This document shows positions 1,270 to 53,424 of a DNA stretch of 64,000 nt, in pieces. The position numbers and the translations under genes are program-made. Position 1 is the first letter of the stretch. Every line of letters begins with the position of its first letter. The notes beneath the pieces are model-generated. The model saw nothing but the letters and a program-made list of their open reading frames with translations. It did not search any database and had not been told where the DNA came from. The stretch comes from Sphagnum magellanicum. Its lineage: Eukaryota; Streptophyta; Sphagnopsida; Sphagnales; Sphagnaceae. The stretch lies in contig CM038925.1 of the NCBI GenBank assembly GCA_021904315.1, forward strand, positions 14,510,501 through 14,574,500, read 5' to 3'.

Positions 1270-4200
1270 TTGTACTATCTACTCAGCATTGAAAGACTGG
1301 AAGAAACTGTCCACCTTTTCCACAATGCAAATTTCAAAACAAGTTTTTGAACCTTGAATGTCATAGCAAACTCATTGGTGATCATTTATGCTATTCTATC
1401 ACCAAGAAAAAAGCAAAGACAACAACCAAAAACACCATACTTCTACTAAGAAAACAAGTCGTATTGAGCCTTAGTTATCACATACTAAAGCGATCAAAAC
1501 AAGGCTTCACAAACATGCAGGCCTTGTCTTTTTAATAATAATAAAAATGATTTATTTTAATGGGATGGTAAGATAGAGAACATGATTTGGTAATTTGAAT
1601 GCAAAATGAATTGGTTTGTGATATGTCCAATAAGTTTTTGTTCATTCAAAGTGGCATTGTTGTATTGGTGCATTAGTCCATATATGGTCTAAATGTGTAT
1701 TATAAATTATAGTACTTTTGTGCAATATAATTGATATATGTTCATGAAATTTTGTAATGTTGTTGATTGTGGTGTATGTGTTAACATATTTATATTGAAA
1801 TCATCAATTATTACAATTAGAAAATTTGTACCTATTGTTTTTAGTATAATGTTTAGAATAGAAATAAATTAATTGGCTTGCACTTTTGGTGGCTTATAAA
1901 TTGCAATTACATGAAAGGATTTTCACATATCTTTATTAAAAGTTGCGATGATGAATTTTGCACCCAAATTTGTAATTTCATAAATATTCAAGGTGTTATA
2001 TGACATAAGTCTATTGTAAAATCTTTTCTATTTAAAGGTAATAATATACTTGTAAATTTCATTGATGGTTTTGGATATTGAGATTGATAAATTTGTTGAC
2101 ATTTTTTTCTACTTGTCCATTTCTGTTGATGTATTTGATTATTACAAATTCCATGTTTAAGTATGCTTTGATTAACGGTTAGTTATTTAACAACAAAAAA
2201 TTTAATATTTCATTTGAAAAAATACCAAATTGAAGGGAGTTTCCTAACCATAATAATTCATGGTCATGAGCTAAACCTCCTTATTGAAATTTTGAAATGA
2301 AAAAATAATCTTTAATTTTACCCCAAAAAATCAAAAACATTTAAATAATTTTGGAACTATTCATTTTATGTTCATAATATCATACACATGTCACAAGTTC
2401 ATTTCTAACAAGCTCTCTTTCATCCAATACATCATCATTTTTACCATAATGTTGAACATAAAAATCTTTTAGTGTTTTACTAAAACTTGAGCAATTTTTC
2501 ACACTTGTAATAAATGTAACAAAAATGTTGGATCTCCAAGTTGATTTCATGGCAAAAAGATTTTTTTGAAGTCAATCCAAATAATTTGGAAATGTTTTAG
2601 CACAATTAATTTTCTATAATCTAAATCAAAATTTAAATTTTATTCTAAATTAACATTAGTTGATACATCATTAACTATTAACATGTGATTTATTATTTTT
2701 TCTTTTCAAATACATATCCATGCAGAGGATAATATAAAATAAATGAAATTTTTAATTATTTTTAAAACATATGTTAATTACATGATATGCAATTTTTTAA
2801 TTAACATTTGTTAATTCAAGTTGTATTTCTTTTTATATGAACATTGAAAACATGGTCTTGGATGTCCAAAAACCAACATTGGATTTTTTTTTTAAAACAT
2901 ATTTATCACAAAATAATCTTAATAGTCAAAAAACTTTCTATAGGTGCAATTGTAAACAATCTTAAATCATCATCAATCATTTGTTCTGCATCCAAAACAT
3001 TTTGTTCTAACATGTTTTGCAATTTTCTTTTATATTTTTTTCAAAATTGTTTAAACTATCTATATGATGATTTTTTTCAAATTCATCCTTTTGCAATTGA
3101 TCATTTTGCAAGTTCTACAAAACCTTGCCAATTTGGTGCAAATGCAAAATGAGGTGCAATACATCATTCTTCTATTTCATTTATTTAACATTAAAAAAAT
3201 ACATATTTGGTTTATTATTTACAATATGGTTCTGTAAAGTTATTTTAAATTTTTTTTAATAAATATTTTTTTGACAAGACGTACACATCAATATTTTATC
3301 ATTAACATTCACAATTTTTTATAGAATTGGGGAATTGTTCAATATATCTTTGACAACAATAACAAGCACGTCAAGGAATATCCTCGATATATATATTTAA
3401 TTTCATAACATATGTATTATTAAATTATCTTTCATCACTATTTTGTTGGATTGAAACAATTTGTCTAATTTAAAACTTCATCATTTATGAATTATTTTTC
3501 ATTGGAGCATCACTTTTAATATTTTTTATGTTCTTCAAATTTATTTTCCATCATGTCATTTTGGCAAATTTGCATTACATTCTAATTATCTTGTCAAAAT
3601 TTGAACAATTTTTTTTTTTTTAAATATTCAATATGTTTTAAATTTTGCTTGATTTTTGTTGTATTTAAACCTAAACATGGATTTTCATGAATAAATGTTA
3701 ATGTAATGTCTTGTATGGTCCATTCAAGATGAGTTTTTTGTAATTTGTGATAATGCATTATTTAAATGGAAAGTGCAACTAAATCTTTTTCATTTTGTTG
3801 ACTTTTTTTTTGTTCATTATTTATGTCCATAAAACATGTACAATGTTTTTTGTCTCATTATCTACATCATTTGTGAAAATATCCATGTTATTTGAAACAT
3901 TATCAAATAAGTCTAAAGGTTTAAAATGATTATTTCTATACAATATTTGAAATTGTGTTTCCATTTTACCCTTGTACTTTCATCATTATTAGACCATTAT
4001 TTTTATTCCATACATGAATTGAACATTGTAAATATTTTGATACCTAATGTATTCCTATAAAATCTCCCCTACAATCCACCTTCTATTGCAAATTTTGACA
4101 TTTGTTGATGATAACTTTCTTCATCATTTGCTCGCCCATGGTGCAAATCTCTTAATTTAATTTATGCCTATGGCATTCTCATGCTTTCAAAACACCAAGT

Positions 4201-4485
4201 TCTAAACAATTCCACAAATATTTCATACTATTTCTATAGAAAAAATTTGAACTCATTGAATATTTTAACAAGTAGGTTATAGCATCAAATAAATAATCGC
4301 CAACATTGTATTTAAAATTAGTGTCATGAACCAAACTCATTCAATTTCATATCTATATCCATAATATATGTTTTTCATTAGTTATAAATCATATACTAAC
4401 TTTAATCTTAAAATGTTGATTTTTCTTTGCAAAAGTCTTTTAAATATTCAAATAATTGTTGTTCTTGTTTCAAAAGATTCCATTT
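1270..4485. other. AT-rich non-coding DNA, no gene seen
   Basis: There are many T and A runs and few CpG. The longest open frame (2844-3152, 102 codons) is low-complexity (K/I/F/S/N-rich), as expected from AT-rich sequence by chance. I see no splice-flanked exon, known domain or strong tandem repeat. Confidence 0.5.
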
Positions 4486-4625
4486 CACTACAACAAAAGG
4501 TGTCCCTATATGCTAAATGATTTCACTAGATGTTGAATAAATTCACTGGTCATAATGAATAGAACCTAATGGGGAAGCAATGAATTCACTAGTCTAGTGA
4601 CTGCAAACTAATGAACTACACCCAA
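4486..4625 (+). mobile_element. CACTA-like transposon end (left terminus)
   Basis: The sequence CACTACAACAAAAGG at 4486-4500 resembles the plant CACTA (En/Spm) terminus CACTACAAGAAA. It is followed by repeated TTCACTAG-type motifs (near 4522, 4552 and 4605), including the palindrome CACTAGTCTAGTG near 4607. CACTA elements carry such short subterminal repeats. I could not find the matching right terminus, so the extent is unknown and this may be an orphan end. Confidence 0.4.
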
Positions 4626-4639
4626 ATTTTGTAATAATG

Positions 4640-5160
4640 TTTGTTTTGCAATTTGTAATCTTTTACAAAAATTTTGAATATTAAACTGATTATTTAATTT
4701 CAACTCTTTTCAAGTAAAAATTTGCATTTAATTATTATATTTAAAACTCCAAATTCAATCGCAATACCACAAAAATATCATGAATTTTCATTTAAAATAA
4801 TATTGGCACTAAACCTTCCACAAGTACCAAAAAGTTTCAATGTTCAACTTTATGACAATATTTTCAAATTTTTCAAAATGCCAATTTTACAATGTAATTT
4901 TTGGAAACTGTTATATTTATATTTAGAAAAGTTTTTAGAACAACACAAAGTCTAATAATAAAAAAATTATTTGTTGTAAAAAAAACACTTATATTTTGGT
5001 TAATTGATGTTAATATCAATTTAACTATATTTTGAAATATGAAAAGTTACAAAATTTTAATGCAACAAGTGTAAGAATGACCCAATAAACCCATCATTTA
5101 GTCCTAGCCAAGAAAAAAATCCCATTATTTAAATTATGTCCAAGTGTCACCAAAAAATGA
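4640..5160. other. AT-rich non-coding DNA
   Basis: No gene is seen. The open frame at 4722-4955 (77 codons) has low-complexity composition and no motif. Confidence 0.5.
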
Positions 5161-6180
5161 AAGGATCAAACAACAACACGACCCCTCTATCGAACCCACT
5201 CAGATAGAATGTGAATGGGTGTCTGACTACCAAACCAGCAGCATGACAATGGCATTAATTTGAGTCCAAAGCTTTTGTCCTTTGGCTCTACTAAACCCCG
5301 ATGAAAGGCACACATCACTAGTGCAAACTCCCCTTTTTCTGAACTTCCACAGATTTTACTCTTACTCAGACAAATCAGCAAGACAGAATCTTAGAAATCA
5401 AACTCATTAGCTCAAAATTTACAGAGTTCCCTGATGGCACAAGCTTTCTTCACTCCAGAGTTCTCATAAAAAATCTGTCAACCCTACTTAGCTAAGTCAC
5501 TGGCGCAATGGAGAGTTACAATAACTCAGCCAAGTTCTCCAAAAACAGATATACGGAGCGATATGTCTATCCATTTCTGAGCTCATCTGACATCTTCAAC
5601 TTTACCTTTCCAACTTCAACACAAAATCTCAGAAAAATCTCCTCTCTAGCACGACCTCAGCCTCTTGCTATACTCTGATCTCCTCTCCCTGAACAATGTT
5701 CATCAAGAATCAAAAACAATTTCTGGACTCTAACGCTCTCCTCCCCAAAATCAGACCTCTCAGTCTGTCTCCACATGCATTCCTGAGCTCTTCTCCCATC
5801 GTCCCCTCTCTACATGCCCACACCTTCCTTTTCTCCGTCCTTGGCTTCCTTCACAAGCCTCCGTCCTTCCTTACTTTTTCCACCGTCATCTCCTTAACAG
5901 CACATCAATGCGGCGCCATCCCCCTTCATCATTCGCACCACCTTTCTCCTATACTCCCCACCCCACACAGCCAGAGAGCAACACTTCCCATGCATCCCAT
6001 GCACGACCAGCACTAACCACCTTCCAAAATGGTAAAATCTGCCGCCCTCATCAATGAAGGTGACGGCTGGATTAATTCTAGAACCCTGATCAGTGAATCT
6101 GGCATTCACACAAAATGCACAACCATAGAATCCTTGTTCGGCCACTCCCTTTCTGGTTACACAAGTCCAAAATAGATTTT
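5160..6180. other. GC-raised island of unknown identity
   Basis: This block of about 1 kb has clearly more G+C and more CpG than its surroundings. Its + strand has a C/T-rich stretch (about 5640-5695) just before an ATG in good context at 5696, giving a 106-codon frame (5696-6016) rich in P, S, L and H. The opposite strand has an 83-codon frame (5894-6145). Neither shows a recognisable domain. Less CpG decay suggests either a younger insertion, such as an LTR fragment, or a remnant of an unmethylated gene leader. No LTR boundaries or target duplication were found. Confidence 0.35.
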
Positions 6181-8554
6181 GTCCAAGACTAATTTAACAA
6201 ATTTTATCCAAATCCAAAAACATTTAGTTCAATTCAAATCAAAAACCCAAAACATAATGTCCTCGATTCCATACAAAAGAAAATTTATACACATAAATCA
6301 AACTTTAATAAATATCATATTTGTCAACAAGAATTAACAGCCATTTTAGTTTTTACAATTTTTCTGCTTTTTACGCTTCTATAACATTTTTCACCAACTT
6401 TTATTTTGTAAGTACTATTTGTTCAACTTTTGCATTCTACTCATTTACAATTTTTTGTTCAAGACCTTTTCAATCTTGATCTTGGAACATTTTATCTCTC
6501 CACTCTTGTTTTTGAACTTCCTTTTCTTTAGAGATGAGTACCCTACAATCTTTGTTGTTGGGTTTTAAATTAATTAACTTTTAAGCTTGCTTTCTTTGAA
6601 TTTTTTAGGGTCTAATCAAATCATGATGAAACAAAAGCTTGATTCAAGGGAAACACAAAGTACACAATCAAAGACCTCCCTGCTTTCATGTTTGATTTTA
6701 TAGTTAATGCAAAGTTGACTCTCAAATGCCACCATACATTTACGATTATAATACTAGTAACCAACACATTTGTTTATTAACAAAGGTAAGTGGCATTTCT
6801 TGTAGACATTTTCAAAACATAATGTTGCAATTGGGATCACAAGGGTTCCAACCACTTGCAAGAACATATTTAACAACTTTAGTTTTGAACCTAAAGTATT
6901 TTCCTCCCAGGTTTCTCAACAAACAAAACAATAACATTTAAATACATTACTTCAAAATTGATGGAAAAATCTTAACCTCTTGTTCTTTAGCTATGAACTT
7001 TAATAACTAACCTTTAAAAAACATTAACATCATAGGAAGGGATTATAACAAAAATACTAAAATAACTTGTTAATAGTCATTGTTCACCATAAACAAAACT
7101 TCCAATGTTTTTCACCAACAATGTTGTAGGTCTACCAATGTTGTATAACTCCATAAATTGTGTGTATTGTGCATGAAACTAAATGAATAGAAATAATGCA
7201 TGCACATCATCAAGACTTAGGCCATTATCTACAACAAGAATGAATGACTTTGCAAATCACTTGTAAATACAAGTCACAAACATTTCCAAAGTCCCCAATT
7301 ATTCCAAATTATTTTTGTGCATGAACTCTAGAATAGAATAAGAAGCAACAAAATGTAAAAATAGTGGAAACTAATGGATGAGTTAAATGACAATAATAGC
7401 CCCAACTTTCAAGACAAATTTTGAATCCCCCTTTTCAAATTTGTTTATGAATGTCACCTAAAATTCGCAATCCTTACAAAAGACTTAACATTCAATTGAG
7501 GATAATATAATGACAAAGCTAGATCCAATAGTTAAATTAATTATCACATACCAACAACATCAATTAGCTCATAATGGATGTATTTATAACCACTACCAAC
7601 CACATCATAAGACCATTCAATTTATAATGTAACCTTCAAAAGATGCACCCAACATACGATGTTAGACATTCATTTGTGAGGTGACTTTCTATCCTTCTAT
7701 TCTTGGTTTTATGAGGTGACTATACTTGAAAGTACATACGCTACCGGTGAAGGAAAAAAATATAAATATATTTTAAAATGTTAAGTTGCGTTTGTAGTTG
7801 AAACCAGATAGCTTGCTTCCTATGCATGATTTACGATTTAGAATTGATAGATATATCTTCCAAGCTTGAACACTCCAAATCCTAGAATTTTACATTAAAT
7901 TGTCACCCATTCAAACCAACTTTAAGGATTAACATCAAGTTCAATTTGGTTGTAGACCACCAATCATTTAAAATATTACTCCTATCGCATATGTTGTCCA
8001 AATCAAGCTTGTCTTAACTCATTAGAAAGCTAACTATAAGGTGCATCTGCCTACCAAATTGTAGGCTCTGCACCTAGACTAGTAAGAAGTTGTGCTACCA
8101 AACCCAAAAGGGTTTATGAAATTCCTTTACAATTTCAAGCTCCCAACATTATCTTATTCACTTCTATTTTTTCAAAATACCCCAAACAACTAACCCATTC
8201 TCCCTCTTTCCACCATCTACTAAGACTCATCATCCTTTTCTTCCCCTTCCCCAAGAAAACTAACACAAGAAGAAAACCCCCCCACATAACCATGCGCATT
8301 CATCATTCCTTATTCTAACATGAAATTGCTAAAAACCCCTAATAACTTTACCACATTTGACTATCCTTGATGCAATTCTTAAAAATTGAGACTCGCACAC
8401 GATTATGTAAATATGGTTCGCATCATTATACCAACAACATTCAAAAATGGAGTTCTTTTCATGTTTGGGCTTGCAACAAATTATATCATAACAACACATA
8501 ACACTCAAAAGACCAAAAGAATACATAAAAAATCACAACATTACAAACAACATG
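6180..8554. other. AT-rich non-coding DNA
   Basis: No gene is seen. Short frames (6726-6941; 8329-8526 on the minus strand; 8386-8583) lack motifs and overlap each other on opposite strands, as chance frames do. Confidence 0.5.
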
Positions 8555-10871: not shown

Positions 10872-11285
10872 CATGTTATATTCTTTGTTGTCATGTCTTG
10901 CTTCAATAAGAACAACACTCAACAAATGTTTTGCTTTTGTTATATTGTCTTGCATCCACACAAAAAAAAGATTTAATACATGTTCTATTTTTTGTTATCA
11001 TGTCTTGCTTCCATAAGAACAACACTCAATAAATGTTTTGCTTTTGTTATATTGTCCTACATCCACACAAAAAAAAGATTTAATACATGTCCTATTTTTT
11101 GTTGTCATGTCTTGCTTCCACAAGAACATTCAATATATGTTTTGATTCTACTATCTTATCTTTGCATCCACAAAAATGAGATTCAATACATGTTCTATTT
11201 TTTGTTTTCATGTCTTGTTTCCACAATAACAACATTCCACATGTTTTGCAATTTGTTGTCTTAACTTGCCTCCACACAAACAACA
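10872..11285. repeat. Tandem array, four copies of a ~107-bp unit
   Basis: Units begin at about 10872, 10979, 11086 and 11189 with CATGTTCTATTTTTTGTTGT-like sequence. They contain TCATGTCTTGCTTCCA, then AAATGTTTTGCTTTTGTTAT, then CATCCACACAAAAAAAAGAT. Spacing is 107, 107 and 103 bp. The first three units are very similar; the fourth is more diverged and the array fades out near 11285. Small frames seen here (10819-11016, 10980-11264) are the repeat read through and carry the same peptide twice. They are not evidence for a gene. Confidence 0.92.
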
Positions 11286-20800: not shown

Positions 20801-22031
20801 AACCTAAACAAACTTGATGGATGCATAACTAAAACCTTGGGCAATTTTGTCATTTGTAGTAGTGTATTATCAAACTTTTGATAGTGCATGACCCAAGCAC
20901 ATTCCATCAAATGGTTTAAACACACCCAAGGCATTATAAGAGACAATTGGTTTTAAAGAATATGCACAAGTCTAAAATTAGACCCATCATCTTTTACACA
21001 TGCCACAATCTTCTAAAATAGGTTAAACTTATCAAAGAGTTGTTGCAATTGGACTACCATAGCTACATTAGACACAACAAGAATTCACAACTTTTCAAGC
21101 TCGTCCAACTTGACTAAAATGTCCATTTTTGCTATAGTTTTGGTCATTTTGATTAGAGGTTTTGGTTATTGAAGTGACATGCCCCTTTTTAGTGGCTTAA
21201 TTGACTAGAATGACCTTTTTGACCAATTGGTCAATGTGACATTTTGTCAAATATGACAAAAAATGAACACCTTTAGTAAAAAACAACAAGGTTGTATAAT
21301 CAAATGGGACATTTGTCAATTTTAACTAGAGTTCATTGCATCAATATATGTGTACATTTTGTGTGACATTATTTCTAAAAATTCCTACATCTATTGATGA
21401 AACCTTGATATTACCCTCAATTATTTTCAAGTCTTTGAAACAAATGCGTAGTTTTTAGAGTAATCCACTAAACATTAAATTGTTCATCACTAGAAGTTGA
21501 AAGCACAATATTGGATTTTCCAACACATACATTTGAATTGATTAATTATGAACTATCACATCCAAAGTTATTTGATATTGAATTAGAAGACCCGCATTTG
21601 CTTCAATATATAAGCATGACAAGATCTTTGAATCTCATTGCTTGCAATATTTTATTTTGAATTGGTAATTGAAATAAACAAGCAAAATTACATAATTAAT
21701 TTCATCTCATAGCTTTTTGTTGTCATCACCATCTTTTATTATTTTTCTTATACCATAGTTTAATATCATTATTACATGTAAGTTTTAGATCTAGTTTATT
21801 AATTTTCATTTAAAAGTTCACAATTAGAACTCCAAACCTTGGTTCACAATAAATAACCAAATATTTCATATAAATAATTCATTGGCATGGTTCGTTGAGT
21901 GTATTATTAAATACATCATGAGCCCCTTTTGACATCCAAATATCAAATGTGCAATTGGTTAAATTGCATGTGGCCAATGCAAATTGCACATATTGAACCA
22001 AAGTTTTTTGCATTAAAGGATGCATATTAAC
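17819..22031. other. AT-rich non-coding DNA, no gene supported
   Basis: Several frames of 60-85 codons occur (17767-18024, 18396-18593, 19833-20021, 20425-20646) but none has a recognisable motif. The segment 21100-21330 is rich in TTGAC/GGTCAA motifs and resembles the right subterminal part of the CACTA element that follows (23950-24148), so it may be a decayed fragment of a related transposon. Confidence 0.45.
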
Positions 22032-22384
22032 TTACCCTACAAGAAATCATGGTTTTTTAGATCGGGAATTTTGCTCAAAAAAACCCTCCATATGGTTTTT
22101 TTGCCCCCATGTTCAACTTGACCAAAGTGCCATTTTAGACAAGTTGATTTGGACCTAACCATTTTGACTAGGTCTTTTTTATTGTCTTTTTACTGGGTTT
22201 TTTTTTACTAGGTTTATTTTACTAAACCACCATGACAATAGTATAATTTGGGCAGTGATTAATTTTTTTAAAAATTATTTTAATTTAAAAGTAATATGAA
22301 AATATTTATTAATTTATTAATTACCCTACTTACCTACCTAAATAAGAACCAATTAATTAATGTCAAAAAAATAATTTATTTATT

Positions 22385-23260
22385 TAGCTACCAACCTTAT
22401 GTCTTAAGCTTAGGTTAAGCCACCTAGCTTAGCCACCTAGGTTAAACCAAACCACTTAAGCTAGGCCAAGCCCCTTAAGCTAGGCCAAGTAGCCTAGGCT
22501 AGGTGGTTTAATAGTTTTTACAACTTCAAGCTACCTAATTAAGTCACCTAAATAGTCAAGATGGCCTAAGTTGCAAGTGTGAAATTTGAATTCCTCACCT
22601 CCACATTGAGCAGCCAAGTCGTTAACCATTGCACCACCACCCCATAAAGTGATCTTTTTGGACAACTTATTTGTAATGAACATGATTTTGGACCAACATA
22701 TTGTAATCAATTTTCATGAATTTTTTTTCAACATGCATACTATATTAAATGAAATTGAAATTTTTTACACTATTTACATAATTAAGTAGGTTATAGGTAG
22801 GGTAGCCTGAGTTGGTAAGAAGTACTTATTAATAAATGCATGTACTTAAGAAACATATAGGTTATAGTCTACTAAGCTTTATAGGTACCTACTAAATCTA
22901 TGTTTATACCTACCTAGTAAGCTATATATGCCTATGTTATTTAGTAGGTTATGTAGGTACCTACTAACCTATGTAATACCTAGCCTAGGCATACTAGGTA
23001 GGTCTATGCTTAAGCTATTTACCTAATAGGTGAGGCTATCTACCTAATAGGCTTAGGTGGTGTAACCTAGGTTAGTTACATACCTAATAGGCTTAAGTAG
23101 CGTAGGTTAGTTACAAACTTAATAGGCCTAGGTAGCCTAGGTTAAGCTACATACCTACCTAATAGGATTAGGTGGTCTAGGTTAAGCTACCTACCTAGTA
23201 ATTAGGCCTAGGTGGCCTTGGCCACTAACTTAGTTAATAGGATAGGCTACCTATAGGTAA
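22385..23260. repeat. TAGGT/CCTAGG-rich degenerate repeat block
   Basis: The core of the CACTA element is dominated by variants of CCTAGGTTA, TTAAGCTAGGCC and ACCTACCTAATAGG in both orientations, so many short inverted repeats are possible. It is interrupted at about 22560-22780 by ordinary sequence that includes a tRNA-like SINE head. Confidence 0.75.
22581..22640 (-). repeat. tRNA-like SINE head
   Basis: On the minus strand, TGGTGGTGCAATGGTTAA resembles an A box and GGAATTCAAATTTC, about 40 bases later, resembles a B box (consensus GGTTCGANTCC). The segment GGAGGTGA followed by TTCAAATTTC is nearly shared with 25802-25823. It cannot be a working tRNA: no acceptor stem pairs. It fits the 5' part of a tRNA-derived SINE. 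Confidence 0.45.
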
Positions 23261-23720
23261 TTAATAAAAATATTTAAAATGATTGATGAATTACTATAAA
23301 TTATAAATAAATAAATAATATCAATGATTAATAATTCCTAGGAATTACTAAATATTAAATATTGAATAGTGATTATTTACTATGAATTAATAATTATCAA
23401 TTAATATATAACAAATTATTATTAACTAAGAGTTAGCTTAAAATAATCACTTATTAATAATTATTTACAATTATATATTGACTACTATTAATTATTATAA
23501 ATTACTATCAAGTATTAGCCAAAAAAATAGATAAAATAGATAATTTTATAATAATAATTAATCAATTAACAAGTTGGTGGAGAGACTAATTATTGGTTAT
23601 TAATTAACATGTATTTGGTGACAAATTAATTATATAAAACATTAATCATAAATTATTGAGTATTAATTATCAATTATTAAATATCAACTAATTAATGTAC
23701 TAAGTTTAAGTACCTACATG
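23261..23720. repeat. Very AT-rich TTAATTAA-type block
   Basis: This stretch is made almost only of A and T in TTAATTA/AATTAATTAT variants, within the CACTA core. It is internally repetitive and can form many short hairpins. No gene is present. Confidence 0.7.
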
Positions 23721-24578
23721 TGCCTAAAGGTAGCATGTAAATAGCCTTTTAAACTCTATAAGTAGCTACTAGGTGTAATATGCTTAACCTAAGGCCTATA
23801 AGCTATGAACTTAAATTTGGTATGTACCTTATGCAAAATAAACTTGTAGGTTAAATAACCAAATTAATATGGTTGATTTGATTAATGGCCAATTTGATTA
23901 ATAGTAGATCACAATGGCCATTAAGTATGGTGAATTTGCCTACGCCTTGGTTGATGGACCTTTGGCGTTTTTTATTAAATGTTTGGTTTGTCACATGGTC
24001 AAAAAGGTCATTTTAATCAAATGTTTCAGTAAAAAATAGCTTGTGTCTTTCATGCCCCAAGTTTTTAGTCAAAACAACCATCCCCTTTGGTCAATGTGAA
24101 CATTACACTCAAGTTGGAGCTTGTAAAAAGTCGTGTTTTCTTGTAATGTTATGTAGCAAAAACTTTTTTGAATGGGAAAACATGTATTGAATAAATTTTT
24201 GATCTCTAAAAATGTTCATTTTAATTATATTTTAAATAAACATTAACATGTATCAAATATAAATTTGACCTTTATAAATGTTAAATTATAATTTGTATAA
24301 ATATTAATTAAGTAGTGGTTAGTTAGTATATTGATTCCTACTTAGTTAGATAATTACTTTAGTTTTAGTAAAAACCACCTAGTCTATTCAAGGAGGCAAG
24401 TTTGAATCTTTTGTATTTTTATTCATTTGTAATAACAATCATATATTTGACTTGTTATCTTTTAAATTTGAATCTATACATTATGTCTAATTTGAACATT
24501 CATGCATTGGAATAATGAGATTGTGTACATGTTTTCTAAAAGTGTATACTTTGTTTATCAACATCAACCTCCACACAT

Positions 24579-28247: not shown

Positions 28248-28273
28248 CCCCCCCCCCCCCCCCCCCCCCCCCC
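28248..28273. repeat. Homopolymer run of 26 C's
   Basis: This is an uninterrupted C run, and the exact length is likely to be unreliable in any read. The proline stretch in the small frame 28092-28295 is this run translated and not a real protein feature. Confidence 0.95.
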
Positions 28274-40000: not shown

Positions 40001-40336
40001 ATTCAAGGAGGAGGGTGCTGGCTTCCTTCCATGTTTAATTGCACCGTCAACACAGGTGCACAGATTCCAGAAGATGTCGAACACCCCTTTTTTTTGTCCT
40101 TAGCTTTTTCTCTTGTTTGGGTCAAGAACAAAAGAAACTTTCTCTCGCCCGCCCTTCTCTTCCTTTCCCTTCCATTCCCTTTTTCTTAAAAAAATGGACA
40201 ACTTTTTGTTTTCAATTTTTGTTTTGTGATTTTTTGGGTGTATTTGTTATGTGGTTTTTTTTATGGTGTTATTTGTTTTTGGGGTGTGTGCAAGGAGTCA
40301 CTTTGATTGGCCCATCATAACAAAGTTATTGGAACA

Positions 40337-40417
40337 GTGGACATCCCTACAATAAAATCATAAGTGCACATCCCTACACTGAAATCATAAGTGGACATCC
40401 CTACAATAAAATCATAT
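40337..40417. repeat. Three tandem copies of a 27-bp unit
   Basis: Units 40337-40363, 40364-40390 and 40391-40417 read GTGGACATCCCTACAATAAA then ATCATAA with only a few differences. They lie about 265 bp upstream of the likely TATA box, so a role in transcription is possible but unproven. Confidence 0.9.
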
Positions 40418-40619
40418 TTGCTGCACTTTGGGGAAAAAAGAAAAGAAAACTCTTGTCGTAATACTTACGTACTTACCAGAAGTGTGGGAGCAGGCGTTGT
40501 GACTTTTGATCAAGTCTTCAAGTCTTTGATTTTTTGTTGCAGTTCTTCATGTAGTCTGTGGGCTCCATCCCTCAACAACAAAAGTCACAATTTACAAACG
40601 TGTGAGGTAGGGAGGGAAG

Positions 40620-40725
40620 GAGGGAATTAAGAGGAAGGGAGAAGGAGTGGCTTCGATTGTTTTCCATCTCTGCTTGAGCTTTCTATAATACCCTTGGTTT
40701 TGTCTTTCTCTCTGCCTTTCTCATC
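40620..40725 (+). promoter_or_regulatory. Likely core promoter of the 41.3-kb gene
   Basis: A TATA-like TCTATAATA lies at 40682-40690. About 20-35 bp downstream is a pyrimidine-rich patch (TTTCTCTCTGCCTTTCTC, about 40704-40721) containing TCATCAG, a plausible start site near 40720. This arrangement of TATA box followed by a Y-patch is typical of plant promoters. The + strand contains no ATG from 40552 to the gene's start codon. Confidence 0.55.
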
Positions 40726-41272
40726 AGTTGTAAAGCTCTCTTTCTTTCTGGTAATTGTTGTTGTTGTCGTCGTCTAAGACTTGTCTAGTGAGAGGGTGAA
40801 AAGATTTTGTCTAATAAGACTAAGTCTTGTCTTAGACTAAGGTGCCAAGAATTTGAAGGGTGGTGGTGCAATTTTTGTTTGTGAGTTTTGTTTGTTCGTG
40901 TGTTTTGCAGATTAGGGTTTTTTTGTTGCTAGTCTTGCTGGGGGAACCATAAAAAGAAATTGACCTGAAATTTAGTGAATCTCAATCAAATACTTCACTT
41001 GGGCATTCAAGGAATTGAAACCCATTTGATCGTCAGTGCAATTTTGCAGTGCAAAGTGTACTTACCACTCTGATTGCTGCAAAACAGAGCTTGAAATTTG
41101 AGTTTAAAGTTTTTCATCTTGCAACACTAGGGGAGCAATACTACTAAAGCTTGCAACTACAATCTGCAGTACAGCTATCCTAGAAACAGCAAAGGTTTTG
41201 ATTGCAGTCAAGGATTTGCAAGCTGCACTAGTAAAGGAGACTGTCAGAAACTACTACTAGTTCAGAGGAAAA
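40720..41272 (+). promoter_or_regulatory. 5' leader of the 41.3-kb gene, ATG-free
   Basis: The inferred leader runs from the start-site region to the base before the start codon. It contains no ATG at all, whether or not the predicted intron is removed, which is very unlikely by chance in this sequence. Just after the predicted splice acceptor is ATTAGGGTTT (40911-40920), whose complement AAACCCTAAT contains the telo-box AAACCCTAA known from plant promoters and leaders. An in-frame TAG at 41258-41260 prevents an upstream extension of the protein. Confidence 0.55.
40751..40910 (+). other. Predicted 5'UTR intron (160 bp)
   Basis: The donor CTG|GTAATTG at 40751 and the acceptor TGTGTTTTGCAG| ending at 40910 fit plant GT-AG introns, with T-rich sequence before the acceptor. 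The intron lies wholly in the leader. The prediction rests on sequence alone. Confidence 0.45.
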
Positions 41273-41947
41273 ATGCAGACAAATGATGAAGCTCAGGGAA
41301 GAGAGAAGAAGCAGGACTCAGCTTCTCCCCATGTGAAGAAAGTGCAAGCAAACAGAAGCTGTTTAGAGATTGCACCACCTCAAATAATCACAGTGGATAG
41401 ATCACCCAGAGCAGCAAAGCTGCAACTTGACACGATCGAGGAAGCAGAAGAACAGTGCATGACAAGTACAGTGGAGTATCTGGTATGTGAAGCTTCTGAC
41501 TTGTTTTTGAAGCAGCTGCCCTTAGTGATGAGCTTGAACTGTGGTGAAGTTGCTCCTCTACCCTTCATCTCTGTCAAGAACTCCAAGCTGAAGCAGCTGA
41601 TGAGATCCAAAAAGCTGCAGCTGGGAACAACAACAATTCTGCTGGACACCATTCTGGAAGAGAGCATTCACTATGCAGAGCACCTTGTGTCGGAAGCTGC
41701 AGATCATGTTTTCAGACCACTGCAGTCAAATGTTAATTCCTACTTGGGAAACAACTTGTTCTCTAAGTACTCCTGGATCAACAACAACAACAACCCAGAA
41801 ACAGCTGACAAAGGAACTCCACCTTCGTTGTCATCACAACTACAAAATTCCAATCTTTTAGTGCAGCAAGCTGCTGCTGGCTCCAATCTAGTGCAGCAAA
41901 CTGGATCATTTGTACAGCAGGAGGAGTTCTTGATCAGAAACTCATGA
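41273..41947 (+). CDS. Unrecognised 224-aa protein, two internal repeats
   Basis: I do not recognise this family. The frame is by far the longest in the window, has coding-like composition and follows an ATG-free leader with an in-frame stop five codons upstream; the start has A at -3. Residues 1-30 are hydrophilic and charged. Residues about 35-89 and 95-155 look like two copies of one unit: I39-T-V-D-R-S matches I99-S-V-K-N-S; KLQL (49-52) matches KLQL (114-117); DTI-EE (53-57) matches DTILEE (125-130); EYLVCEASD (68-76) matches EHLVSEAAD (136-144). The parts around EYLV and EHLV look helical. Residues 165-224 form a low-complexity tail with five Asn in a row (170-174), and three VQQ motifs between 197 and 216. 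There is no signal peptide, no membrane segment and no cysteine/histidine metal site. A soluble, possibly protein-binding role is inference. The gene stands alone, with no neighbour within 20 kb that hints at function. It appears intact and intronless within the coding part. Confidence 0.75.
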   Translation: MQTNDEAQGREKKQDSASPHVKKVQANRSCLEIAPPQIITVDRSPRAAKLQLDTIEEAEEQCMTSTVEYLVCEASDLFLKQLPLVMSLNCGEVAPLPFISVKNSKLKQLMRSKKLQLGTTTILLDTILEESIHYAEHLVSEAADHVFRPLQSNVNSYLGNNLFSKYSWINNNNNPETADKGTPPSLSSQLQNSNLLVQQAAAGSNLVQQTGSFVQQEEFLIRNS

Positions 41948-42200
41948 TCTGCATCACAAGCATCATGTTCAATCTCTAAGCTAAGATTTCACACAAATTT
42001 CTGATAAACCCAAGAAAATAATTCAGGCATACAAATTTCAGTTGGACTATAAACTGCTCCAGGGGTGAATTCACCCTCCTTTTTTCTTTTCATTCTTTGG
42101 ACAGATCTGATGACTGATGGTCTTGCACTTGTTATGAACAATTTAAGCTTGATAGAATCTGTATCAATGTCTTTGTATCAGATATAATCATGTTTATGAA
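41948..42200 (+). other. Probable 3'UTR of the 41.3-kb gene
   Basis: Composition stays gene-like after the stop. AAAATAATTC (about 42016) and the T/A-rich TTTGTATCAGATATAATCAT (42172-42191) are the kind of loose signals plants use for 3'-end formation. The exact end cannot be fixed. Confidence 0.35.
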
Positions 42201-43700
42201 AAGCAGCAACAGGTCAACCATGATCCGGTCACTGTTATTATCTCAAAAGATTGATCAGAGTGTACTACTAATATGGGAATTCCTCTTGAGTCTATGGCAT
42301 CATCAGAAATTAGTGTGGGGATGTTTTTGGGCAGTTTGTGTGCTGCTCCTTAGTCAAATGGATTTCCATCAGTGATGAGCTTGAGGTATGTGAAGTTTTT
42401 TGTTTGCATGTATTTTTCAGTGGTGGAAAAATGGGATTCAACCTGATTGCATTTTAGCTTGTGGGTTTTGTTTCTGCAATGCTCAGATTCTTGGCGAAGA
42501 CAATCAGAGTTTGGATAGTGAACATTAAAGTTCCTCAAGCAGCATCTGAAGAAGAAGTCTTAATCATCTCTGGGCCATATTCTTCAGGACAAAAGGAGAT
42601 ATTAAATTCCTTGCAGCAGCCCACTGAACTTGTTGGCAATGATTTTCACCACAAATAGTCAATTCTACTGCTGAGTTTAATCTTTGCTATGAAAAATTGG
42701 CATCAGCAGTCACCATTTCATCAATGTAGCGTACATTCTTCTGGCATGTTACTACTATGTTGTTTGTGCACTTTCATATCCAATCTCACCTGTCTCGAGT
42801 AGAGCTGGTGGACATTTTCAAGAGAAGATGCATCATGCAAGTGTACTTCATTATAGCCACCAAGTTTGTGACATCACCCAGGAAAAAATCTTTCAGCTGC
42901 TTCTCCTTCCCAGATGTTCCTCTTCCATCTCTACAGATCTTCTGCATTTCTGGTCTTAAATCATGCATGAGAAAATATTGTGAGCCATCCCATTCATCAA
43001 AAAAATGTTCAATGTAGTACTTGACATTTTGCTTCTAGCACACACATGAACTTCCATTTTCAGGTTCAAGTTTTTTACAGAAACTTGTTGTCAAAGGTTT
43101 TGCAAATTGCACCTAAAAATTTCTCTCCATTTCATGCAAATGACATAAATTCCTTCTATCTCCAGACCCATTTGGTCATGCACTTCAAACTTGAAAATTA
43201 TCACTTAAAAAAGCTTTTTCCTGGGTTGATCAACTCAGATTCTGACAAGCTTGTGGAATAAGTCTTGTGACCTAGAATACATCAAGTGAATTTGAATCAA
43301 CGAATGCTTGAAGCTGTCCTCTGAAAGCTTCATGTACAACACATCCTACAGCTAATTGTAATAATACCTCAATGCTGGAAACCCTTGAAAGCTACACAAC
43401 AAAAAAATTCAGACAGCCAAATTTGAGAAGCAATCAGAATGGCACTGAAGCCAGAACACCATGAAATGTTGCAACATCAGTGATGCATGCCATGCTTTTC
43501 TACAAGGAACGAAGCCCAAATGCAAATTTGACATGCTACAACAAAGTTCTCAATGTATGTGAATGCCACCGGACATGATAACTTCCTTATTGAGATTGCA
43601 ATTCTTGAGTGATGAAGAGCTCCTGATTTAAGCAAAATGATGTCATGTTCATAATCACTTTGTACCACACCCTTATGTAGAGATGATGGGTCATGGGTTT
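42201..43700. other. Gene-like stretch without a convincing frame
   Basis: G+C and base texture resemble transcribed DNA rather than the AT-rich flanks, with few homopolymer runs. Frames of 60-86 codons occur on both strands (42461-42658, 42757-43017 and 43046-43261 plus; 42786-42968 and 43477-43668 minus), and none shows a recognisable domain. The block could be a longer 3'UTR, a non-coding RNA gene, unrecognised exons or a decayed gene. Confidence 0.3.
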
Positions 43701-44242
43701 AGGGTTCAAAAATTCTCATTTGCACTCCTAGCTTCAAGTTTTTCTATCAAGAGATTTAATTAAGATAGTGTTGAAATATAGAACTGCACATTTGGACAAC
43801 ACAAAAGGGAAGCATGATCCCAGTTAAGATTTTTGAAAGATTTGTGATAAGAAGACCGATGCACACAAAGGGACCCCATACATAACCAAAACCCCTAAGC
43901 AACCACTAATCCATTGTGTATCAACACAAATTGCATCACAACAAGCAAGCATATAAATGTAGATTTGTATTGTATTTGGAGATTAGGTTCAAAAAGTGTA
44001 ACTTTGAGTCCAAGGAGATTATGTGTAACATCTCCATCTTTTCTTCTCATCTTTTATTGTTATTTGATTTTTCGCCTTATTGCTTTTGCTGATCTTTCAC
44101 AATGTCTTTTTATATAGTGTGAAAATATCTCTTTCAAAAGCTTTTCAACATGTCATTTAAGATTTATTTCATCTTTAATTGATGCTGATATGAGAACTTT
44201 GTTCATCATTAAGTGACTCAAGTAATGAAACTCAAGTATGCA
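43701..44242. other. Non-coding DNA, no gene seen
   Basis: The base composition returns to the AT-rich background. The frame 43914-44117 is short and motif-free. Confidence 0.45.
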
Positions 44243-44497
44243 TTCCACCATTCCAACAAAATTGTTGCAAGAATGAACATGTGCTTATTTCACCGTTGAA
44301 ACATCAAGGTCTTTAGAAGAAAATATGTGCACACATACTTATGAGAAACACAACCTTTCAGATTTATGCTTTCCACGACTCCAACAAAATTGTTGCAAGA
44401 ATGAACATGCGTTTATTTCAATGTTGAAAGATCAAGGTCTTTAGAAGAAAATATGTGCACACATACTTATGAGAATATCACCTTTCACATTTATGCT
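44243..44497. repeat. 127/128-bp tandem duplication
   Basis: Copy 1 (44243-44370) and copy 2 (44371-44497) share CCAACAAAATTGTTGCAAGA, GAACATG, ATCAAGGTCTTTAGAAGAAA and ATATGTGCACACATACTTAT with few differences, so the duplication is fairly recent relative to the background. CAAAATTGTTG inside each copy is close to palindromic. Confidence 0.95.
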
Positions 44498-51489: not shown

Positions 51490-53157
51490 CACTAGTAGAA
51501 ATTGGCCAAAATGTGACCATTCTATTTGTGACTACATGCAACTATTAGTTATTTGCAATTACATTTGGACATTTTTGCAACTATTTCTTGTGTTGGTCAT
51601 ATTTGCAACTACATTACAACTAATTTGTGACTATTTTGATATTCATCCTTACATGTGAACAACATTTAGTTTGGTTTTCATCCAAGAAAAACAATTTATG
51701 TCCCACTAACTACAAATGTGACCAATTTAATTGCAACCCTATCAATACACAAAGGTGTATTTCGTGAATTACATAAGGAACATAATTGGGTGTATTAAAA
51801 TTTATAAATTTATATTTTGAATGTACATGAACAACCATATTACATGTGTATTCAAATATTATTATTAGCATAAATGGCCTCGATATTATGGTTACACTAA
51901 TTAGTGTATATTTTGAGTATATTAAAATTTTAAGTAAGATATTTACCAAATATATTATACCCATATTATAAGTTTATCCACACCATCTTACTATACTTCT
52001 TCAAATTATTACAAATTACATTTATTAATATTAATATTAATATTATATTATGTCTTTATAATAATTACGTGTAATAAAAAACTAACTTTCAAAATTATCT
52101 TTGACTAATTTTTTAAAATAATATTTTACTACATAATGATCATAATGATGATGATTTTAGAATGATAGGAAAAATAATTATATAATTCTGAAATAATTAA
52201 TAAAAATCTAATATATTCTTATATTATTATTTAATTATTTTCAAATCACTAATGTACTTATTAAGAATTATTCAATGATCATAATCAATTATTGATATAT
52301 ATATATATATATCAGTTTTATTATTTTATTATTTTATAAAAATTACTGTAGTAGTTAGAATCGAAATCTAATAAATTATTATACAAATGCAGAAATTATT
52401 TTCGAAGGAAATACACTTATTAAAAATATAAAATATTTATTATAATAGTTCATGAATAGTTATAATGAGTGAAGTAATAATATGAATAATAAAAATAAAA
52501 TAGTTAGCCTTGGCTAGCAACTAGTTATAATAATAATTCAATTAATGTTATTTTTAATATTAAATAGTTACACCTATATTTATTATTAACTATAAAAATA
52601 AAAATAATTATGGGAATAATTATAATAAATTATTTAGTGTGGGCTATTTTTTAATTATACTATTAAATTTTAAAAAAATAGAACTCAATATTTATAATTA
52701 ATAGTTAATAATTACTAAAATAATAAATATCTTAGTTATTATATTAATTCATTTGGTTATGAAATGTAAATAAATTAGTTATTAACAATTAGCTTATTAT
52801 TGAAATATTAGCCAATTACTAGTTAATTAAATTGGTTGATAGATAATTACAGCTAATATATAATTAAAATTAAATATTATTAGTGTTTATTTAGCTAATA
52901 AATTAAGTGATGTTTAGTAATAACTAATAATATAATTAATTGAGTAATCATAATATGTTGATTATTATTACTACAAAAAATTAGTTAGTTTCTATTTTAG
53001 TTGTTAATTAATTAAATACCAAGTTTATTCATTTATTTGCTTATATTTTATTCATTAAATAATTAATAATTTTATTAAGTAATTAGTTGATTTATTAGTT
53101 CATTAGTTAACTAATTAGTTAGCTAGTTAATTGTCATTTACCTACGTAATTATATAC

Positions 53158-53301
53158 TTTTCAAGATGAGAATGAAAACTAAAACATATGGGATAAACTT
53201 TTTAGTTACAAGTTGTTTGCGATTAAACATTTTTAATCATAAACGACTTGCAAATAAAAAGTTCATCCCATATGTTTTAGCTTTCATTCTCATCTTGAAA
53301 A
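53158..53301. repeat. Long hairpin with 70-bp arms
   Basis: Arms 53158-53227 and 53232-53301 are complementary at 63 of 70 positions around the 4-base loop CATT. Weak pairing (TATATA-type) continues outside. Six of the seven differences are transitions, as expected from slow decay of an originally perfect palindrome. The arms contain CATATGGGATAAACTTTTTA and its counterpart. If transcribed it would form a long double-stranded RNA. It could be a foldback transposon or a young small-RNA locus. Confidence 0.92.
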
Positions 53302-53424
53302 ATATATAAACAATGTATTTTGTTTTATATTTTCATATTTAAAACCATGGGCATATGGGACGAGCCAATAAAAACAACTTAACCCAAAATAAAATATAAA
53401 TATTCATGTATTTATATTTAACTA

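Follow-up and report, generated by a model that had tools for sequence, protein, structure and literature searches.

We found that the window, a 64,000-nucleotide stretch of the Sphagnum magellanicum genome (contig CM038925.1, positions 14,510,501 to 14,574,500), carries a complete, correctly delimited non-autonomous CACTA copy. CACTA (En/Spm) elements have inverted ends that start with CACTA, a 3-bp duplication and subterminal repeats, and their autonomous members carry a tnp2-type transposase. We place the window element among the non-autonomous members of this superfamily with a probability of about 0.95, because inverted ends, 3-bp duplications, related empty sites, dispersed copies and subterminal motifs occur together and no coding was found. 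The element starts with CCCTACAAGAAATCATGG and ends with GTGTTTTCTTGTAATG, with TTA on either side; its 5′ start reads CCCTA and its reverse-complemented end CATTA, each one substitution away from the consensus CACTA. The coordinates that an earlier note on this DNA had given for the element and its TTA/TTA flanks proved exact to the base (Table 1), and the agreement it had claimed between the two inverted ends, at 20 of 28 bases, was confirmed. The family represented by this copy is a new CACTA family, and the type of element is already known and ordinary.

Table 1. Parts of the window element and its flanking duplication; positions are counted from the first base of the window.
Feature	Position	Strand	Remarks
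TTA target-site duplication, left copy	22032..22034	.	read from the sequence; perfect 3-bp duplications in 19/25 placed family copies
Complete non-autonomous CACTA element, 2114 bp	22035..24148	+	90.7% identity to the family consensus
Left terminal inverted repeat CCCTACAAGAAA	22035..22046	+	consensus CACTACAAGAAA
Left subterminal region	22047..22294	+	consensus TTGACC/GGTCAA and TTGGAC motifs, partly eroded in the window copy
First TAGGT/CCTAGG-rich block	22388..22560	+	fold z −2.9; 1/200 shuffles equally good
Second TAGGT/CCTAGG-rich block, imperfect 35–40 bp tandem repeats	22785..23260	+	fold z −2.2; 2/100 shuffles equally good
AT-rich block	23260..23700	+	fold not significant (z −1.4)
Right subterminal region	23889..24136	+	TTGAC/GGTCAA motifs
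Right terminal inverted repeat TTTCTTGTAATG	24137..24148	+	consensus TTTCTTGTAGTG
TTA target-site duplication, right copy	24149..24151	.	read from the sequence; one triplet here in related empty sites

The genome search covered 438,994,042 bases in 31 contigs, with matches on contigs numbered C1 to C20. Searching with the whole element returned at least 83 matches on 17 numbered contigs (40 of 857 first-look candidates scored); because two further searches likewise scored just 40 of 318 and 40 of 484 first-look candidates, all family copy counts are lower bounds. Forty loci, the window copy included, were fetched with their flanks, and the 29 near-complete ones were aligned, the other 11 being excluded for an unmatched end or an element that was largely missing or interrupted. 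The resulting consensus is 2130 bp long, beginning CACTACAAGAAATCATGG and ending GTTTTCTTGTAGTG (family ends CACTACAAGAAATCA...GTTTTCTTGTAGTG), and its CACTA terminal inverted repeats read CACTACAAGAAA at both ends, matching at 12 of 12 positions. Exact degenerate patterns of the ends occur in the genome 56 times (left) and 68 times (right), as against 0 and 0 for reversed control patterns. Pairing the listed ends on the same strand within 30 kb gave 19 pairs, 16 of which span 1.7–2.5 kb, the other three lying farther apart. A MITE is a short element, usually well under 800 bp, and all of these spans exceed the size of a CACTA-type MITE. The copies share both ends and have 3-bp duplications of their own, as the earlier note had hoped to see, and its suggestion of a new non-autonomous family is supported; the family is new, its kind known. 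The literature searched, CACTA and Sphagnum included, gave no description of it among the matches listed.

Positions 21073..21260 (−), some 775 bp left of the window copy and not part of it, hold a diverged right end that matches consensus 1943–2130 at 68% and belongs to this family or a related one. A comparison of the consensus with the window found no left end partner for this remnant.

The duplication test used 25 of the 29 copies, L011, L024, L027 and L028 having been dropped for a truncated or misplaced end. The 3-bp flanks were identical in 19 of these copies, agreed at two of three bases in five and at one of three in one, leaving six of 25 with no perfect duplication; the 19 perfect duplications comprise 16 different triplets. 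When the triplets were slid by 1–6 bases, only 0–4 of 25 copies showed identity, in line with the original reading of TTA/TTA as a target-site duplication. For the window copy, the flanks were joined with one TTA into a 400-base query, which gave at least 51 genome matches (40 scored of 75 candidates), ten of them crossing the join by at least 15 bases. Nine places were fetched, namely seven of these ten together with L072 and L073, both of which end short of the join. An empty orthologous site had been expected to show a single TTA; at the related, non-orthologous sites recovered here (71–82% identity), the element is absent and a single triplet occupies the TTA position in seven of seven fetched junction-spanning loci, but that triplet is never exactly TTA (TTC in three, TTT in two, TCC in one and ATT in one, as the alignment shows them). 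Since the window flanks match elsewhere across the junction, the insertion appears, on sequence comparison, to have struck a short dispersed repeat. Just upstream of the insertion point, the window flank has three extra bases, absent from all nine fetched loci, which may have come from an independent small insertion or be the footprint of an old excision. An empty counterpart exists for copy L038 as well: this copy lies between AAT/AAT, and a sequence next to copy L020 that matches its joined flanks (69% over 708 alignment columns) has one AAT at that position.

The TAGGT/CCTAGG arrays and imperfect tandem repeats that dominate parts of the middle would also fit a generic dispersed or tandem-derived satellite-like TAGGT repeat, on which the CACTA-like ends and TTA/TTA are coincidental. 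We regard this explanation as exceedingly improbable, as placed copies end at the CACTA ends, 19 of 25 with perfect duplications, and empty sites exist for both the window copy and L038. Copies with their own duplications and related empty sites support the reading as a non-autonomous CACTA element.

Short subterminal repeats of the CACTA kind, both direct and inverted, are present in the family. Motifs, each counted together with its complement, were compared between the consensus and 300 shuffles for two 248-bp subterminal parts and a 1610-bp interior. TTGAC occurs four times in the left part (shuffle mean 0.60; 2/300 reach this) and seven times in the right (mean 1.10; 0/300), while GGTCAA occurs three times in each (means 0.22 and 0.32; 0/300 shuffles reach either) and TTGGAC three times in the left part (shuffle mean 0.21). 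The interior of the consensus has no GGTCAA and four TTGAC (mean 0.80; 3/300 shuffles reach this); as TTGAC is above shuffles there too, it is not confined to the ends, whereas GGTCAA is. TTGAC(C/T) is the core of the WRKY W-box, and the overlap of the subterminal motifs with it may be a coincidence.

TAGGT occurs 52 times in the interior of the consensus (mean 11.0) and CCTAGG 13 times (mean 0.95), with 0/300 shuffles reaching either count. The TAGGT richness claimed for the window element holds, with 49 occurrences on both strands against a mean of 9.8, a count reached by 0/300 dinucleotide shuffles. These blocks had been called an unusual cargo; the TAGGT/CCTAGG and AT blocks are indeed there, but they form the body common to the family and are not specific to this copy. 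Consensus 1401–1700, the later AT block, is among the best-kept parts of the family, and the middle of that block (1301–1400) is not. Compared with shuffles, the two TAGGT blocks of the window copy have a somewhat better fold, which is not true of the AT block (Table 1); part of the TAGGT-block folding may follow from the palindromic CCTAGG. It seems to us quite improbable that the TAGGT/CCTAGG arrays are a functional second site set and not inert filler, such as sites to which a moss-specific accessory protein binds or a hairpin source of small RNA regulating related CACTA elements.

Promoters of the tRNA-like type contain an A box, TGGTGCAATGG, and a B box like AGTTCAAGTCC. Candidate boxes of this kind on the minus strand of consensus 505–600 were rejected, with 10 of 60 shuffles scoring equally well. 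A search with the Rfam tRNA model gave no match in nine loci, ARAGORN found no tRNA in the window or the consensus, and the Rfam gathering search of the window gave 0 hits.

The earlier note had reported no frame of 60 codons, and the longest ATG/GTG/TTG frame inside the element is indeed 59 aa. Five longer frames of the window element gave no Pfam match, and the consensus has no stop-to-stop frame above 74 aa. Without a start-to-stop frame above 59 aa or a Pfam match, the tnp2 of autonomous members is absent here, and membership of the superfamily is therefore non-autonomous only. The tnp2 domain (PF02992) is abundant in the genome, with at least 152 matches (150 scored of 657 candidates), several of them in open frames of 500–811 aa with no stop. 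The three tnp2 loci that were read (L059–L061) all contain tnp2, two of them with DUF4218 and DUF4216 alongside. They were rejected as direct parents: the family ends are absent inside the fetched 9.9 kb, and their matches to the family are short and weak. Measured against 82 left-end and 85 right-end entries, just two of the 150 tnp2 places had a family end no more than 25 kb away; the distances were 10.0 and 11.1 kb, and both ends belonged to complete short copies. An autonomous relative, which the earlier note had proposed to look for, was not seen as a coding element with family ends among the 150 of 657 tnp2 candidates compared. By analogy with other CACTA systems, we infer that tnp2 transposase would be supplied to the family in trans.

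Two of the loci read, L059 (C11) and L060 (C8), have CACTA transposase open frames of 674 and 811 aa, respectively, and show no locus-wide CAG/CTG depletion, which suggests that they may be young. Neither shows its element ends within the fetched 9.9 kb.

The interior of the element could have arisen in more than one way. If the element was produced by internal deletion within one particular autonomous CACTA of the same genome, its interior would be a non-coding leftover of that parent (intron or untranslated). Non-autonomous CACTA elements often arise so, according to the available part of PMC2613891, and the abundance of tnp2 genes fits such an origin, to which we give slightly less than an even chance; the three tnp2 loci read match the family just briefly and weakly, and the autonomous parent may no longer exist, or may be among the candidates beyond the 150 scored of 657. 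Capture of the interior from elsewhere, as in the Pack-CACTA type, is unlikely: the composition of the interior does differ from that of the ends, but the five window-element frames have no Pfam match, and a tested 116-bp piece lay inside family sequence in 4/4 extra loci (40 places listed, 294 candidates). Since the piece was always within family sequence, no independent source was seen in these four loci.

Long end pairs were considered as autonomous relatives and rejected, as the 6.6–6.9-kb copies L053 and L062 are short copies holding other inserts. In L053, a family copy is interrupted by ~4.4 kb of inserted DNA with CACTA-like ends, CACTATGAGAAAATCATGT and CAATATGAGAAAATTATGT; the flanks of the insert, TAA/TAG, agree at two of three positions, and six frames tested gave no Pfam family above cut-off. 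By its ends, this insert would be a second, different CACTA-like element nested in the family copy, with no recognisable transposase. L062 is a family copy with 0.8-kb and 3.83-kb inserts, which gave no Pfam match in two frames tested. The 3.83-kb insert covers bases 2660–6489 of the reverse complement; the 24 bases at its start and the 24 at its end form an inverted repeat (91.7%), and a portion of its sequence is similar to the right flanks of L012 and L026. Two candidates for two-right-ended elements, to which end pairing had pointed, were likewise discarded: L063 is a 1441-bp short-subfamily copy with a separate inverted neighbour and retrotransposon-like frames in between, and L064 is a complete copy adjoining a broken one.

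Shorter copies of 1.37–1.69 kb look, from their ends, like a sister subfamily. The left-end pattern CACTACAAGAAAA, likely marking this shorter group, has 198 genome matches against 83 for the control, and eight end pairs 1.37–1.69 kb apart, paired by coordinates among the matches listed, combine left ends of this type with family right ends. L063, the one of these eight that was read, is flanked by TTT/TTT. Left ends similar to the CACTACAAGAAAA type also occur in L040 (CATTACAAGAAAACAAGG), L047 (CACTACAAGAAAACAAGG) and L048 (CACTACAAGAAAACAAGA). Deletion forms are seen in L074 and L076, in which consensus ~785 is joined to ~1815. On contig C4, seven family right ends are clustered within 125 kb (16.546–16.670 Mb); for four of these, coordinates give a pairing with a left end of the short subfamily at a distance of 1.4–1.6 kb. 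Another relative, L036, is 1.5 kb long, lies between TGT/TGT and carries an end of the right type at either side, one of them right-like over about its first 27 bases.

The 29 copies are 81–91% identical to the consensus, and judged by these values the family is old. Divergence was calculated for 26 main copies, with L039, L040 and L047 excluded as more divergent. The mean K2P distance was 0.117 to the consensus and 0.194 pairwise; the pairwise value is somewhat below the 0.234 of a perfect star, which points to a history dominated by one burst, with some substructure. Substitutions relative to the consensus are strongly biased (C>T 17.0, G>A 17.3, T>C 3.0 and A>G 2.7% of sites), C-to-T and G-to-A being ~6 times commoner per site than the reverse, and because of this bias no age in years is given. 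CAG and CTG occur in the element at 0.19 and 0.12 of expectation, compared with 0.39 and 0.37 in the whole window. Together, the C-to-T excess and the CAG/CTG depletion would be the expected mark of methylated-cytosine deamination, CHG context included.

Five copies, three on C9 (L012 included), one on C5 and one on C12, lie beside host sequence that matches the joined L012 flanks at 97–100%, among the matches listed (40 scored of 391). Both flanks are listed in four of the five and the right flank alone at C9:14034675; other matches to the L012 flanks are mostly one-sided, at 79–89%. Given such near-identical host flanks, the five copies appear to share one insertion that was then multiplied with the surrounding repeat or duplication.

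The history of the family may be pictured by analogy with known CACTA elements. A tnp2-type transposase from other CACTA elements would have excised the element at its CACTA termini while an accessory protein probably occupied the subterminal TTGACC/GGTCAA motifs, and the excised element would have been pasted at staggered 3-bp cuts. The family would have spread mainly in one old burst and partly, as the five copies at one insertion site suggest, as a passenger of another repeat or duplication, and since then its copies have probably decayed for the most part through C-to-T change, as methylated DNA would.

Among known systems, dSpm-like non-autonomous CACTA elements have in common with the window family the CACTA ends, the 3-bp duplication, the subterminal repeats and the absence of a transposase; the window family differs in an interior that is not recognisably transposase-derived and consists of two TAGGT/CCTAGG blocks and an AT-rich block. 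In Sphagnum genomes, CACTA is reported at 6.8%, more than any other classified repeat type and second to the 7.8% of unclassified repeats, and the part of the source at hand describes no families of these elements (PMC9946827), the present family being delimited here. Jozin elements of Chenopodium and relatives, as presented in the accessible sections of PMC8978399, are likewise CACTA elements carrying non-coding repeats, in their case a 171-bp satellite array; the element detailed there is coding and 16.5 kb long, whereas the window family is short and non-coding, and its repeats are motifs of ~5–40 bp. Soybean Tgmt* and Tgm, so far as covered by the portion of PMC2613891 used here, are alike in their CACTA ends (there 13 bp and imperfect), three-base duplication and subterminal motifs, whose divergence between CACTA families that paper stresses; Tgmt* is coding and 20.5 kb long, unlike the non-coding 2.1-kb window family. 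A survey of MITEs in 207 plant genomes reports, in its available part, CACTA as the least represented MITE superfamily (PMC12550479), and the present family is longer than a MITE.

Overall, one peat-moss CACTA family now has boundaries fixed to the base, a consensus and evidence from empty sites. The consensus could be added to repeat-annotation libraries and could mark past CACTA activity, and the family leaves current knowledge of how CACTA elements work unchanged.

The window as a whole is depleted in CG (0.19 of expectation) as well as in CAG and CTG, as though CG and CHG methylation had affected most of it for a long time. Positions 40001–44000 form the sole 4-kb bin with no CAG/CTG depletion (1.70 and 1.36 of expectation; elsewhere 0.04–0.73), and 40001–42000 has the highest G+C among 2-kb bins. 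The longest frame of the window, of 224 aa, lies at 41273–41947 and has no Pfam family above cut-off; the 40001–44000 bin may hold a gene. A 160-base self-complementary stretch (89%) at 53150–53309 is possibly a fold-back element, and a smaller one of 79 bases lies at 1191–1269. Minisatellites were found at 10872–11280 (107-bp unit, 3.9 copies) and 44237–44497 (128-bp unit, 2.0 copies), and a run of 26 C occupies 28248–28273.
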